In this document: in pieces, positions 4,570-37,204 of the stretch
Layout: each line of letters opens with the position of its first letter
Position numbering within the stretch: position 1 is the first letter of the stretch
Assembly (NCBI GenBank): GCA_021795465.1
Contig: JAJYPK010000004.1
Coordinates: 1 to 59,093, forward strand
Reading direction: 5' to 3'
DNA: 59,093 bases
DNA from: Bacillota bacterium
Lineage (GTDB): Bacteria > Bacillota > Sulfobacillia > Sulfobacillales > Sulfobacillaceae
Made by a program: the position numbers and the translations under genes
The notes under the pieces: model-generated
What the model saw: the letters and a program-made list of their open reading frames with translations, nothing else
Told to the model about the DNA's origin: nothing
Databases searched by the model: none

Positions 4570-5979
4570 ATGGATGAAGCCCTATTGACACCTAAACGGA
4601 TCGTAGAAGAATTGGATCGGTATATCGTCGGGCAACATGGTGCTAAGCGGGCGGTTGCGATTGCGCTACGCCATCGTTGGCGCCGAAGCCGCCTGGACCC
4701 TGAGCTGCAGGAGGAAATTACACCTAAAAACATCTTAATGATTGGTCCTACCGGGGTCGGAAAAACGGAGGTAGCCCGCAGGCTAGCGCGTTTGCTCCGG
4801 GTGCCCTTTATTAAAGTGGAAGCCACTAAATTTACTGAAGTGGGATATGTGGGTCGTGATGTTGACGCCATGATTCGAGATCTGGTCGAAACCAGCGTCC
4901 GGATGGTCAAGGAGGAACGCACCCAGTCGGTCAAAGACCGGGCGGAGCGTGCTGCCGAAGACCGCATCGTTGAGGCTTTAGTCCCGGATCCGGTGGATGA
5001 ATCGGCGCAACAAAACCCGTTCGAAGCCTTGTTTGCGGGCGCAGGTGGCAATTACCAGAACAAGCGACCGGTCGACTTTGAAGAGCGTCGACGAATTGAA
5101 GAAGATCGCCGTAAGGTTCGAGAAAAACTACGATTAAAGGCCATGGAGCACGACCTGGTCGAAGTGAATATAGAAGACGCGGCCCCCCAAATGCCGATGT
5201 TGGGCAATATGCCGGGATCCGAGGAGAACCAAATGAATCTCGGTGAGATGTTTGGGAACTTGTTGCCCAAACGTACCAAGCGACGGAAAATGACCGTGGC
5301 GGAGGCGCGCAAAATCTTGACTCAAGAAGAAGCTCAAAAACTAATTGACAGTGATGCCGCCAATGCCGATGCTCTGTGGCGGGCCGAACAGCAAGGTATT
5401 ATTTTTATTGACGAGTTTGATAAGATTGCGTCATCGAGCCAAGATGGCCGAGGTCCCGATGTCAGTCGCGAAGGAGTCCAACGCGATATCCTTCCGATTG
5501 TGGAAGGGTCGACCGTAAACACTAAATATGGGCCAGTAAAGACGGACCACATCCTATTTATCGCAGCCGGCGCTTTTCACGTCAGTAAACCGAGTGACCT
5601 CATTCCCGAGTTGCAGGGACGATTTCCCATTCGGGTGGAATTTAGTGCGCTGACCGAAAATGATTTTTATTCAATTTTAACCGAGCCCAAAAATTCACTC
5701 ATTGCGCAATATCAGGCGCTGTTGGGAGCCGAAGGCGTGGAGGTGCGTTTCGAAGATGAGGCGCTGCGGGCAATGGCGCGTTATGCCGATCGCGTGAATC
5801 GGGACACTGAAAACATCGGAGCCCGACGCTTGCACACGATTCTCGAGAAAGTTCTGGAAGAGCTAAGCTTTGAGGCATCTGATCTCACAGGGCAGGTCAT
5901 TCCGATTACGGCGGACTACGTGGATCAACGGTTGGCGCAGATTGCCGATAATATTGACATTAATCGGTATATACTCTGA
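4570..5979 (+). CDS. hslU: HslU unfoldase (AAA+ ATPase)
   Basis: AAA+ ATPase that unfolds substrates and feeds them into HslV. The 469-residue length is typical. Walker A is GPTGVGKTE (about 59-67), the intermediate I-domain spans roughly residues 105-240, Walker B is [10 protein letters not shown] (about 276-285), and the C-terminal tail ends NRYIL, the segment that docks into HslV. The gene follows hslV with a clear GGAGGGAG ribosome site. Confidence 0.96.
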
Positions 5980-6080: not shown

Positions 6081-6863
6081 GTGGAACAACTGTTAGAAAA
6101 GACGCGACGTATTAACCGATTACTACAACGCACGGCCGGGCATCCTGTCAACTTCGAAGAAATGGCGCAGATCTTGAGCCAACTGATTGCCGCTAACGTG
6201 TATGTGGTGAGTCGTCGGGGTAAGATTTTGGGTTATTCTCTCTTGGATTCCTTCGAGTGCGACATTATGATCCGCGAAGTTCTTGGGCAGGATTCCTTTC
6301 CTCAATCCTATAACAATGGGTTGTTGAAGGTTGACGAAACTTTTCCGAATGTGTCCCAAGAATCACGTCGGTGTGTCTTCTTTCGGGATAAGCAGTGTAT
6401 ATACGAAAATAAGATTACGACGGTAGTGCCGGTTAACGGAGGTGGCGACCGCCTAGGCACCCTGGTGCTGTCCCGCTTCGGCCGGGAGTTCGAGGATGAA
6501 GACCTAATTTTGGCAGAATATGGTGCCACCGTGGTGGCCATGGAAATTCTGCGGTCGAAATCGGATGAGTTGGATATGGAGGCCCGCAAAAAGGCGGCGG
6601 TCAAAGTAGCGATTGACACACTTTCCTACTCGGAACTCGAAGCAGTCCAGCATATTTTTGAGGAATTGGGCGGCGAAGAAGGGCTGTTAGTGGCCTCCAA
6701 AATTGCGGATCGCGTGGGGATTACGCGGTCGGTGATTGTCAATGCGTTACGGAAGTTTGAGTCGGCCGGCGTAATCGAATCCCGGTCCTTGGGGATGAAG
6801 GGTACTCATATCCGCGTGTTGAACGACCGCCTTATGGCAGAGCTCAAAAAACTTCATCGTTAA
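6081..6863 (+). CDS. codY: GTP-sensing transcriptional repressor CodY
   Basis: Global regulator that senses branched-chain amino acids and GTP and represses starvation genes. The 260-residue protein has the N-terminal GAF-like effector domain and a winged helix-turn-helix near residues 204-240. The helix-turn-helix includes the very conserved [20 protein letters not shown] and the wing [13 protein letters not shown]. The start is GTG, with AAGGAGG at 6066-6072. Downstream of hslU is its standard place in Firmicutes. Confidence 0.96.
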
Positions 6864-20987: not shown

Positions 20988-21132
20988 CTTCTTATCAAGA
21001 GTGGTGGAGGGACTGGCCCTATGAAGCCCGGCAACCCCCGTATGGGAGGGTGCTAAATCCTGAAAGATCCGAGTTGAGGATCTTTACAGATGAGAAGAGT
21101 GCACACGCCTCTTCTCATCCGGCGTGTTTTTT
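20988..21132 (+). promoter_or_regulatory. SAM-I riboswitch (S-box) with intrinsic terminator
   Basis: The classic S-box core is readable: CTTATCAAGAG, GGTGGAGGGACTGGCCC, ATGAAGCCCGGCAACC and GGTGCTAAATCC. Helix P1 pairs 20988-20996 with GATGAGAAG (21089-21097). The antiterminator is a perfect 11-bp pairing of 21089-21099 with CTCTTCTCATC (21109-21119). The terminator is ACACGCC (21103-21109) / GGCGTGT (21121-21127) plus a six-T run. P1 and the antiterminator share a strand, so SAM binding favours the terminator. It should switch off the split metE and yitJ genes when SAM is plentiful. Confidence 0.95.
21103..21132 (+). terminator. Riboswitch-controlled terminator
   Basis: Stem ACACGCC / GGCGTGT (21103-21109 / 21121-21127) followed by TTTTTT. 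It is mutually exclusive with the antiterminator described for the SAM-I element. Confidence 0.9.
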
Positions 21133-33257: not shown

Positions 33258-35921
33258 ATGAGAATTTGTGGCATTCCTTCGATGCAAGAGTGGGTTCCTG
33301 GATATCGAGAGAGGCTGGGTTTGTGGCATCAGGTCTCTACTGGATTAGAATTCGTGCCATGGCCGCACAGAAATTTGTTGGTCGCCGATGAGCCAGGGGC
33401 GGCAGAGTTCGAGGCCTGGGATCGCTATGGCTTGGAACTGCAACTCTACGGAATCGCGGTGCCAGCGTTTAGTCCCGGGAACGTTGATCAATTGCGCGTC
33501 GGCTGGAATCTAGTCGTTGAGGCGGGCGTCGACGAAGCGATCCGGAATGCCTATGCGACGACGGTGGGATGGCCTTGGACTCGTGATGAATATGGGCGGG
33601 AGTTTAAAGCTTGGCTTGACGCGTGGACGGAACAACACATGCAACAGGTGGTCCGGAGTCTTAATCTACCTCGGACGTTGGGTGGATCGCTTGGACGTCG
33701 ATTAGCCAATCAAGTCATCTCCGCCCCGAATCTATGGAACATCGGTGGTGCAGACAAGGTGCTTGTGCTGAATACGACAGCGCAATGGATCGAAAAGGCG
33801 CAGCGGATGTTAACCCAGAAACCGCGAGAGAATGCCGAAGCTTGGACCGTGAGAATTCGTGACCTTGGGGAAAATACTATCGGGATAAGTGTCTTCGATG
33901 ATAGTGGACTCGACGTGCGCTATCAGGTGATGCAACGGTGGGCGGCCTACTGGTTGCCATGGGCCCAATTAGAAGATTATACCGAGGTCGTGGTCTCCGA
34001 TGATGTCTTGGGGATCTTTTGGGAAGAAGAGTTACCGCGTCTTTATCGAATTGGAGCTACGGTGCAAATTCCGAAGCATTGGGTCCGTCACCAATTGGTC
34101 GCACGTCCCTCACTCGAAGCTGGTTGGAGACCTCATAGTCTGGATACCCGTCAGTGGTTGGATGTGGAGTGGGATGTCTTGCTGGATGGCATGCCGATGA
34201 CCGAAGACATGCTGGTGGCACTCGCTAAAGCCGAGGCACCACGGATCAAAATTCAGCAACAGTGGGTTGTCGTCGATGACGCACTGGTCCGCCGCGCGAA
34301 GACGCTGTTACGAACCATCCATCGACGTCACCAAAGTTTGGGCGCACTCTATTTTCGTGAATTGATGGCCGAACGCTATGACCCCTCTTTGGTACCTGAG
34401 ATACGCCGACGTGTGTCGGAGGTCCTGGCTGATTCGCCTAAGGTCGATATGGATGCGGCAGGTTTTCGCGGTGTATTACCCGCATACCAAAAAGTGGGTG
34501 TAGAGTGGCTTCGAGGTCGGATGGAACATGAATTAGGGGCCCTTCTTGCTGACGACATGGGTCTAGGTAAGACCATCGAGGTTATTGCGGCGGTTTTGGA
34601 TTTTTGGAGAGGGCATCCCGGTCGGATGGGCCCCATATTGGTGGTGTGTCCGCTTTCGGTGTCGACGAACTGGGTAAAGGAATGGAAGCGGTTCACACGG
34701 GACTTACCTGCGAAGCTGTACCGGGGGACGCGTCGGGTTTTTGCTGTGAAGTCGGATGAGCGCGATGTGATTATTACCACGTTTGATACCGTGGTCCGTG
34801 ATCATAAACAAATGGCCAAGGTGGCTTGGGAAGGATTGATCATTGACGAAGCCCAACATGTAAAAAATCGCCATACTCAACGTGCCCAAGCGTTGGCTAC
34901 GCTTAACACTCGTTGGAGGGTAGCCTTGACTGGCACCCCCGTGGAAAACCGTCTTCTAGATCTATGGGCTATCATGGACCTATTAAATCCTGGGTGTTTG
35001 GGATCGTCAAAGGACTTTCAACAGTACTTTGAACGTCCCATGAGTCGGGGGGCTGAGGAAGAGCGCAAGAATGTGGCGGAAGAATTAACGCGAGCCCTGG
35101 CGCCCTTCGTCTTGAGACGAACCAAGACCGATCCGGAGATTCGCAAGGATCTGCCAGACAAGCTGGAGGTTACAGAATGGGTTAACTTAGAACCGGAACA
35201 AGTGGTGCTCTATAGAGGGATTGTCGACCAACTGTTAGAAGAACTCGAACAAGGAGAGAGCATGGAAGCTATGACGCGGCGTGGTATTGTGCTCCGGGCG
35301 ATTACGGCCCTAAAACAGATTGTTAATCATCCAGCTCAATACCTTCACGAAGCTGAAGCAAACCCTAGACGATCGGGGAAGTTGATGCGGCTCGATGAGT
35401 TGTTGGCGCAATGCGTATTACGTGGAGAAAAGAGCGTGGTGTTTACCCAATACGTTCGCATGGCGCGATTACTCCATGGGTATGCTAAAACACGCTATGG
35501 AGTTCCAGTCGACATTTATCATGGGGGACTTGCGGCAGGAATGCGAACCGGTGTCGTGGACATTTTCAATGAATCTCCAGCTCCTCGAATCCTCATCGCA
35601 TCACTGAAGGCGGGTGGTGTAGGGTTGAACCTACAATCGGCCTCGCAAGTATTCCACTATGACCGTTGGTGGAATCCTGCCATTGAGGATCAAGCCACCG
35701 ATCGCGTATGGCGGTTGGGGCAAAACAAACCCGTTACGAGTTATAAATTGGTGAGTCGGGGCACCATTGAAGAACGCATTGATGAACTCATTCATCAGAA
35801 ACATTACTTAACCTCTCTCATTATGGAACCCATGGCGCAACGTCCCATTACGGAGTGGAATACCCACGAACTACGAGAGTGGATGTCCTTAGGAGAACGC
35901 TATGAAATCGTTAAACCGTAA
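33258..35921 (+). CDS. SNF2-family DEAD/DEAH-box helicase
   Basis: 887 residues. The N-terminal 400 residues are the bacterial SNF2-associated region, ending near LPAYQKVGVEWLRGRMEHE. The ATPase has motif I LLADDMGLGKTIEV, motif II IIDEAQHVKN, motif III ALTGTPVENRLLD and the helicase C lobe with SVVFTQYVRMARLL, KAGGVGLNLQ and DRVWRLGQNKPV. It should translocate on double-stranded DNA or remodel protein-DNA complexes. The ATG at 33258 has no ribosome site but lies seven bases after TATACT (33246-33251), so the mRNA may be leaderless. It overlaps the SWIM gene by 20 bases. Confidence 0.9.
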   Translation: MRICGIPSMQEWVPGYRERLGLWHQVSTGLEFVPWPHRNLLVADEPGAAEFEAWDRYGLELQLYGIAVPAFSPGNVDQLRVGWNLVVEAGVDEAIRNAYATTVGWPWTRDEYGREFKAWLDAWTEQHMQQVVRSLNLPRTLGGSLGRRLANQVISAPNLWNIGGADKVLVLNTTAQWIEKAQRMLTQKPRENAEAWTVRIRDLGENTIGISVFDDSGLDVRYQVMQRWAAYWLPWAQLEDYTEVVVSDDVLGIFWEEELPRLYRIGATVQIPKHWVRHQLVARPSLEAGWRPHSLDTRQWLDVEWDVLLDGMPMTEDMLVALAKAEAPRIKIQQQWVVVDDALVRRAKTLLRTIHRRHQSLGALYFRELMAERYDPSLVPEIRRRVSEVLADSPKVDMDAAGFRGVLPAYQKVGVEWLRGRMEHELGALLADDMGLGKTIEVIAAVLDFWRGHPGRMGPILVVCPLSVSTNWVKEWKRFTRDLPAKLYRGTRRVFAVKSDERDVIITTFDTVVRDHKQMAKVAWEGLIIDEAQHVKNRHTQRAQALATLNTRWRVALTGTPVENRLLDLWAIMDLLNPGCLGSSKDFQQYFERPMSRGAEEERKNVAEELTRALAPFVLRRTKTDPEIRKDLPDKLEVTEWVNLEPEQVVLYRGIVDQLLEELEQGESMEAMTRRGIVLRAITALKQIVNHPAQYLHEAEANPRRSGKLMRLDELLAQCVLRGEKSVVFTQYVRMARLLHGYAKTRYGVPVDIYHGGLAAGMRTGVVDIFNESPAPRILIASLKAGGVGLNLQSASQVFHYDRWWNPAIEDQATDRVWRLGQNKPVTSYKLVSRGTIEERIDELIHQKHYLTSLIMEPMAQRPITEWNTHELREWMSLGERYEIVKP

Positions 35922-36324
35922 TCCGGAAACCCTCGACGCGTGGATTAGGCGCCGCGCGGTCGACGGTGTGGATATCATGCCAGATGGGGTACATGGCGGT
36001 TTTTGGGATGGTGAGGAATGGTATTCCGTTTGGATTCCCATCGCCGATTGGGATGGTCCGGTGGCAGGCTTATCTAAAAGTCATTGCTCTTGCGGCGCGG
36101 GTCAGTGCATTCATCGAGAGACCGTGTGGCATCTTGTGATGCCCCTTTTAGGTTTGGTCGTTCCGGGGTCCTCGTGGGCAACATTTTGGAAGGATGCGGA
36201 CTTGCCGACAGAGTTTGGACCGGGAGCTACGTATCTGCGTGAGCGTTTACAGCAAATCCAAGATCAGTCGCGCAGGCGTGCCTGGACCGAATTGGCATAC
36301 CATATTTATGACACAAAGACATAA
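35902..36324 (+). CDS. SWIM zinc-finger protein, helicase partner
   Basis: 140 residues with a SWIM-type CxCx(n)CxH motif, CSCGAGQCIH (about residues 62-71), and a following VWHLVMPLL helix. SWIM domains bind DNA or protein and are commonly encoded beside bacterial SNF2 helicases. AGGAG lies seven bases before the ATG, inside the helicase gene. The overlap and order imply that both proteins act together. Confidence 0.8.
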   Translation: MKSLNRNPETLDAWIRRRAVDGVDIMPDGVHGGFWDGEEWYSVWIPIADWDGPVAGLSKSHCSCGAGQCIHRETVWHLVMPLLGLVVPGSSWATFWKDADLPTEFGPGATYLRERLQQIQDQSRRRAWTELAYHIYDTKT

Positions 36325-36416
36325 AAAGCGGGATTAGCCCGGCTAATCCCGTGGTGAGAATCCGATCCCTCAGCCGATCCTCTGGCACTCCACAATCCTT
36401 ATAGTGCGTCCCAGCA
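36323..36416 (-). ncRNA. Candidate small RNA (about 95 nt)
   Basis: On the minus strand a strong promoter (36423-36451) is followed by about 65 bases without a frame of coding character. A terminator then follows: CGGGATTAG / CTAATCCCG (36329-36337 / 36343-36351), with TTTTT on the minus strand at 36327-36323. The RNA would start near 36416 with TGCTGGGACGCAC. It contains a further pairing, GCACT...AGTGC. It reads antisense only to the last bases of the SWIM gene. Confidence 0.5.
36329..36351 (-). terminator. Terminator of the candidate small RNA
   Basis: Perfect 9-bp GC-rich stem with a 5-base loop and a five-T run on the minus strand. On the plus strand no T-run follows, so it does not serve the helicase operon well. 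Confidence 0.7.
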
Positions 36417-36422
36417 AAACCT

Positions 36423-36451
36423 ATGATATCATCTGTCTGAAAATTTGTCAA
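36423..36451 (-). promoter_or_regulatory. Strong sigma-A-like promoter
   Basis: Minus strand: TTGACA (36451-36446), exactly 17 bases, then TATCAT (36428-36423), with TGA just before the -10. The -35 is a perfect consensus. No protein gene with a ribosome site follows. Confidence 0.75.
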
Positions 36452-36496: not shown

Positions 36497-37204
36497 GTGA
36501 GTGGTAACAGTGCTCGGGTAATTGTGGGGATTATCGGCGTGACGGGTGGGATTGGACGTGCCTTAAGCGTGGCGTGCCGGGACCGAGGATATGTGGTGGT
36601 GGGATTTTCGAGAAATCCTGGGACCGATGAAGTGCCACTTAACCTCTCGGCACCCGAACCTATGGTATCTCGTGTGATTGCAGAGACAGCAGAGCGGGTC
36701 GGGGAATTTACGGCGTGGGTTAACTTAGCGGGTGCGGACATCTTAAGTGAGCCTGTCCGCAGCATGTCTTACGAGGCTAAGTTGAATCAGTTGTGGGAAA
36801 TTGACGTGTTGGGTAGTGTCCGTTGCAGTCGAGCAATTTTACCACACTTGGTGGCCGATGGCTGTGTTATTAATATCGGCTGGGATGACGCGTGCATCGG
36901 ACATCAAGGAACCTTTGGAGAACTTTATGCTCTGACCAAGGCGGCGGTAACCGCTTATAGCAAAAGTCTTGCGATGACCCTTAATGCCTCCTCGAAAAAA
37001 GTGTTTGTCTTTGCTCCTGGCTGGGTTAGCACCCGGTGGCATGCCGGTTTAACGACTCAGCAGCGAGACACTTACACCGAATATATCACCGATGGAGCTT
37101 GGCAAACGCCAGAGGAGGTCGGGGAAGCGATCGCCGACTTGATTGTGGGCCGGGCCGCACTCGACTCGGGAACCGTGTACGTTTTGCCGAAGCGAGAGTC
37201 CTAG
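36497..37204 (+). CDS. Short-chain dehydrogenase/reductase, atypical active site
   Basis: 235 residues. The NAD(P) motif is GVTGGIGRAL, and the catalytic YxxxK is in YALTKAAVTAYSKSL. Where classical SDRs have a catalytic Ser (NISS), this protein reads INIGWDDACIG, so the serine is absent. The substrate is unknown and the protein may be non-classical. The start is GTG at 36497 after GGGGAGGGG. The stop shares the palindrome CTAG with the convergent DUF2231 gene. Confidence 0.82.
   Translation: MSGNSARVIVGIIGVTGGIGRALSVACRDRGYVVVGFSRNPGTDEVPLNLSAPEPMVSRVIAETAERVGEFTAWVNLAGADILSEPVRSMSYEAKLNQLWEIDVLGSVRCSRAILPHLVADGCVINIGWDDACIGHQGTFGELYALTKAAVTAYSKSLAMTLNASSKKVFVFAPGWVSTRWHAGLTTQQRDTYTEYITDGAWQTPEEVGEAIADLIVGRAALDSGTVYVLPKRES

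Follow-up and report, generated by a model that had tools for sequence, protein, structure and literature searches.

The stretch of DNA analysed here, referred to as the window (59,093 nucleotides), contains two co-directional genes on the plus strand, a SWIM-like ORF and a gene named as SDR by Pfam, and the gap between them carries on the minus strand what is very probably, as judged from its sequence, an RNA gene of ~94 letters with its own start and stop signals (Table 1). The SWIM label is that of the first-pass annotation and has no Pfam match; the SNF2 protein beside this ORF is named by Pfam. The RNA interval is free of genes, the SWIM-like ORF ending at 36324 and the SDR ORF starting at 36497, in agreement with the earlier statement that no gene lies between the promoter and the terminator.

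Table 1. Features of the minus-strand RNA locus, the flanking genes and the paralogue in the same genome.
Feature	Position	Strand	Basis
−35 element TTGACA	36446..36451	−	promoter scan
−10 element TATCAT, extended (TG upstream)	36423..36428	−	promoter scan
Predicted sRNA transcript, ~94 nt	36323..36416	−	5′ end placed from the −10 position
Conserved core of the RNA family, 59 nt	36354..36412	−	covariance model R1, 77.8 bits, E 6e-19
Hairpin P1 (GCACU/AGUGC), loop motif GGAUUGUGG at 36398-36390	36385..36407	−	pair counts
Hairpin P2 (GAGGAUC/GAUUCUC), loop GGCUGAGGGAUCG at 36375-36363	36356..36382	−	modelled pairs
Intrinsic terminator hairpin CGGGATTAGCCGGGCTAATCCCG, 10 pairs	36329..36351	−	terminator scan
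SWIM-like ORF	35902-36324	+	label of the first-pass annotation
SDR gene	36497-37204	+	Pfam
Class B paralogue in the window genome	G000:C175:9015-9075 (locus L117:6016-6076)	+	R1

The promoter, TTGACA-17-TATCAT, which had been proposed on the minus strand, is of sigma-70 type, matches the consensus at 11 of 12 positions and has an extended −10 element. The GC-rich hairpin and TTTTT that were claimed to follow it are also present, as a 10-bp stem and then CTTTTT, with the U-run at 36327-36323. Taken alone, the window promoter is not beyond chance: the whole window has one site of at least 11/12, compared with an average of 0.6 over ten shuffles, and around the locus there are 2 promoter-like sites where 4.4 are expected in shuffles. 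Terminator-like sites number 9 where 4.3 are expected. A fortuitous promoter and terminator without function would agree with the promoter counts; this explanation, to which we give a negligible probability, is refuted by the family-wide conservation with covariation described below. It is the conservation in relatives that raises the candidate above chance level. The single-sequence fold of the sRNA is only modestly stable (z −1.8), and the evidence for structure is therefore comparative.

When the minus-strand interval was compared with 41 genomes by blastn, strong matches came from the same genus and, restricted to a 58-nt core, from further genera of the family; weaker ones came from a second class of copies, with one member in the genome of the window itself. 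With the covariance model R1 and a cut-off of at least 68 bits, the order yields 33 copies; the genomes that carry them, 20 out of 42, belong to a single family and have one to four copies each. The copies score 68–83 bits, while the next best match among the relatives reaches 23 bits. The records with names are Sulfobacillus thermotolerans Kr1, which has three copies, S. benefaciens and other Sulfobacillus, and there are also Bacillota genomes. Searches of 154 genomes of the class and of a 398-genome phylum sample added no further genome with the RNA. An exact 22-nt pattern match in a metagenome-assembled genome labelled Verrucomicrobiaceae is without P1 and scores only 25.8 bits, and was taken as chance. 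Since about half of the genomes of the order are without the RNA, it is dispensable. The family is previously unlisted and confined to Sulfobacillus-type bacteria; the earlier remark that the RNA belongs to no recognisable family holds for Rfam 15, where there is no match at the gathering score or when relaxed up to E 5.

The copies split into two old paralogue classes. The window RNA is a member of class A, and the same genome holds one copy of class B; this paralogue and the multi-copy nature of the family go beyond the first-pass annotation. In the window genome, the class B copy is preceded by TTGACA-17-TATTAT as its promoter, and its long terminator-like stem is without a clear U-run. At L122:6011-6069 and 6203-6263 two class B copies occur in tandem, with 192 nt from one start to the next and a separate promoter and terminator for each. 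Most copies of the family have a sigma-70-like promoter. Over the 33 copies, the best promoter in the 50 nt upstream has a mean of 10.0/12, compared with 7.4 in shuffles, and the distance from the −10 element to the GGGAC leader is 8–12 nt in all copies except one, where it is 6 nt. The core is followed by a hairpin in 32 of the 33 copies, a few of them without a clear U-run, and the sequence of this hairpin is unrelated between copies and differs between lineages. The conservation of promoter and hairpin in relatives, on which the candidate had been made to depend, is seen for the promoter and for the presence of a terminator, but not for the terminator sequence itself. The conserved part is instead a two-hairpin core, which the first-pass annotation did not describe.

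The core opens with a 5′ leader, GGGAC (GGAAC in a few copies), followed by P1, whose loop motif is GGAUUGWGG (GGAUAGCGG in three copies), and by P2, whose loop is GGYUGAGGGAUCG; both loops are G-rich and almost invariant. The fifth pair of P1, read directly from the sequences of 29 distinct copies, is G-C in 12, U-A in 9, C-G in 5 and G-U in 1, and is unpaired in 2. In P2, each of the six modelled positions is paired in 100% of the copies and A-U/G-C exchanges occur; the covariation score is reached by none of 500 shuffles and lies above all slid registers; the alignment behind these P2 counts and this score was fitted to the model and thus leans towards structure. The covariance analysis that had been called for in related genomes accordingly reveals a covarying structure, in P2 and in the fifth pair of P1. 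Single-base length differences among the copies, with no frame visibly conserved, led us to reject a small protein as the product. The locus thus combines its own promoter, a covarying structure and a terminator with no coding potential, as a free-standing structured sRNA gene would. With the promoter, the two internal hairpins and the terminator kept in relatives, and with compensatory base changes, the original reading of a candidate small RNA gains support, and from the sequence comparisons we consider it almost certain that the locus is a true sRNA gene and represents a new family.

An SDR gene is divergent from the RNA in 12 of the 17 class A copies, and the other class A flanks, such as an AI-2E transporter or SNF2/SWIM, change between genera. 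The class B copies lie in several unrelated places, common only to close relatives. A structured and highly conserved core followed by a terminator would also be found in a cis-acting element such as a riboswitch or leader, which we consider very improbable: in the window the gene that follows downstream runs in the opposite direction, and the copies have no same-strand downstream gene in common. Because the neighbouring genes differ and such a common downstream gene is missing, the RNA is best regarded as free-standing, and it very likely acts in trans. A mobile element was rejected as well, as the RNA matched nothing in plasmids, phages or viral contigs and class A is syntenic.

The RNA-negative genomes carry no diverged RNA copy beside their SDR orthologues, and in several of them an apparent SWIM gene abuts the SDR gene directly. 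The window RNA lies antisense in a gap between two co-directional genes that are seemingly adjacent in RNA-negative relatives, and read-through from SNF2/SWIM into SDR would yield an antisense copy of it. Other elements were observed near copies of the RNA or in the window. In G021, the class B copy at 5948 (−) of locus L119 is preceded by a gene with MerR-type helix-turn-helix and resolvase domains, which we read as IS607-type and whose end lies ~60 nt upstream of the RNA. In G002, a class B copy has a c-di-GMP-I riboswitch (L126:2660-2753, −) ~2.7 kb away, and the window itself contains a SAM (S-box) riboswitch at 20989-21096 (+) with 87 bits and E 2e-19.

The pattern of conservation within the core suggests how the RNA may work. 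Across 24 copies of both paralogue classes, little or no variation is seen in the loop residues, in the GGGAC leader (except one position) or in the GCAC strand of P1, and this strand is kept in sequence while the neighbouring fifth pair varies freely. That a paired stretch retains its sequence and not only its pairing suggests recognition by sequence and shape, which in our reading favours a protein partner; an alternative pairing is another possible reason why the P1 stem does not vary. With a protein partner, the RNA would make contact through a surface formed by the two loops and the invariant GCAC/GUGC stem, and, acting in trans, it might titrate this RNA-binding protein or hold it in a small RNP. 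Our best explanation of the locus is accordingly a free-standing gene for a structured, trans-acting sRNA whose loops and stem contact a protein, a reading to which we would give roughly an even chance; for the protein contact as such, which is drawn from the conservation pattern, the balance is equally even.

The main alternative to protein contact is that the RNA is a base-pairing regulator, its loops pairing with C-rich stretches of a few mRNAs, perhaps with the help of Hfq. Base pairing is the commonest mode of bacterial sRNAs; the conserved loops lie exposed in the predicted structure, the paralogues keep the same loops, and Hfq is present in most of the genomes searched. On the other hand, searches for Hfq gave nothing in g2, g3, g6 and g10, four genera that carry the RNA, and the conservation reaches into a paired stem. 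In addition, in a 1.6-Mb portion of S. thermotolerans, about half of its genome, complements of the 7-mers and 8-mers of the core were not enriched near the 1342 starts predicted there; the test used crude gene calls, and an sRNA with few targets would escape it. The streptococcal csRNAs, LhrC and the actinobacterial 6C RNA are multi-copy base-pairing sRNAs whose C- or UC-rich loops match Shine-Dalgarno regions. Like them, the present family occurs within a genome as several similar copies, every one of which has a promoter and terminator to itself, and its loops are conserved; it differs in that these loops are G-rich and in the lack of target enrichment near starts. We give base pairing a minor but appreciable probability, lower than that of protein contact.

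One specific form of protein contact is that the RNA is a Gram-positive counterpart of RsmY/CsrB, whose GGA loops would sequester CsrA beside or instead of FliW. The core has 4–6 GGA per 60 nt, with GGA in the P1 and P2 loops of nearly all copies (GGAU in loop 1, AGGGAU in loop 2), and csrA and fliW are found in the window genome and in most relatives. Most copies have more GGA than their mononucleotide shuffles, but the majority do not exceed their dinucleotide shuffles, and the GGA of loop 2 is lost in two copies. CsrA is moreover not found wherever the RNA is kept: G002 (97% complete) has no detectable csrA, fliW or flhA and keeps two copies, one with intact loops, and G003, a fragmented assembly, also has no detectable csrA and fliW. 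Conversely, several csrA-bearing genomes, one of them nearly closed, are without the RNA. Like RsmX/RsmY/RsmZ and CsrB/CsrC, the CsrA-sequestering sRNAs of Gammaproteobacteria, the RNA is short and free-standing, carries GGA in hairpin loops, ends in an intrinsic terminator and has more than one paralogue per genome. In contrast to them, it belongs to a different phylum, gives no Rfam match to those families, has two hairpins only, is strongly conserved beyond GGA, stem included, and is kept in a genome without csrA. Because G002 keeps its RNAs without csrA and many csrA genomes are without the RNA, CsrA is a possible but not a favoured partner, and we consider this specific reading unlikely. 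Somewhat more room, though less than an even chance, is left for a broader reading, and we propose tentatively that in this Gram-positive-type lineage the RNA may be a lineage-specific sponge of an RNA-binding protein, which might be CsrA beside FliW, or another GGA-binding protein where CsrA is absent.

A search of the open-licence literature gave nothing relevant on small RNAs of Sulfobacillus, and we found none described in these acidophiles. The present family adds to this group a well-supported structured RNA with ancient paralogues and a putative two-loop contact surface, and its covariance model R1 could be offered to Rfam. If the partner is indeed CsrA or another GGA-binding protein, these bacteria would have a sponge RNA where control of CsrA is otherwise expected to be exerted through FliW.
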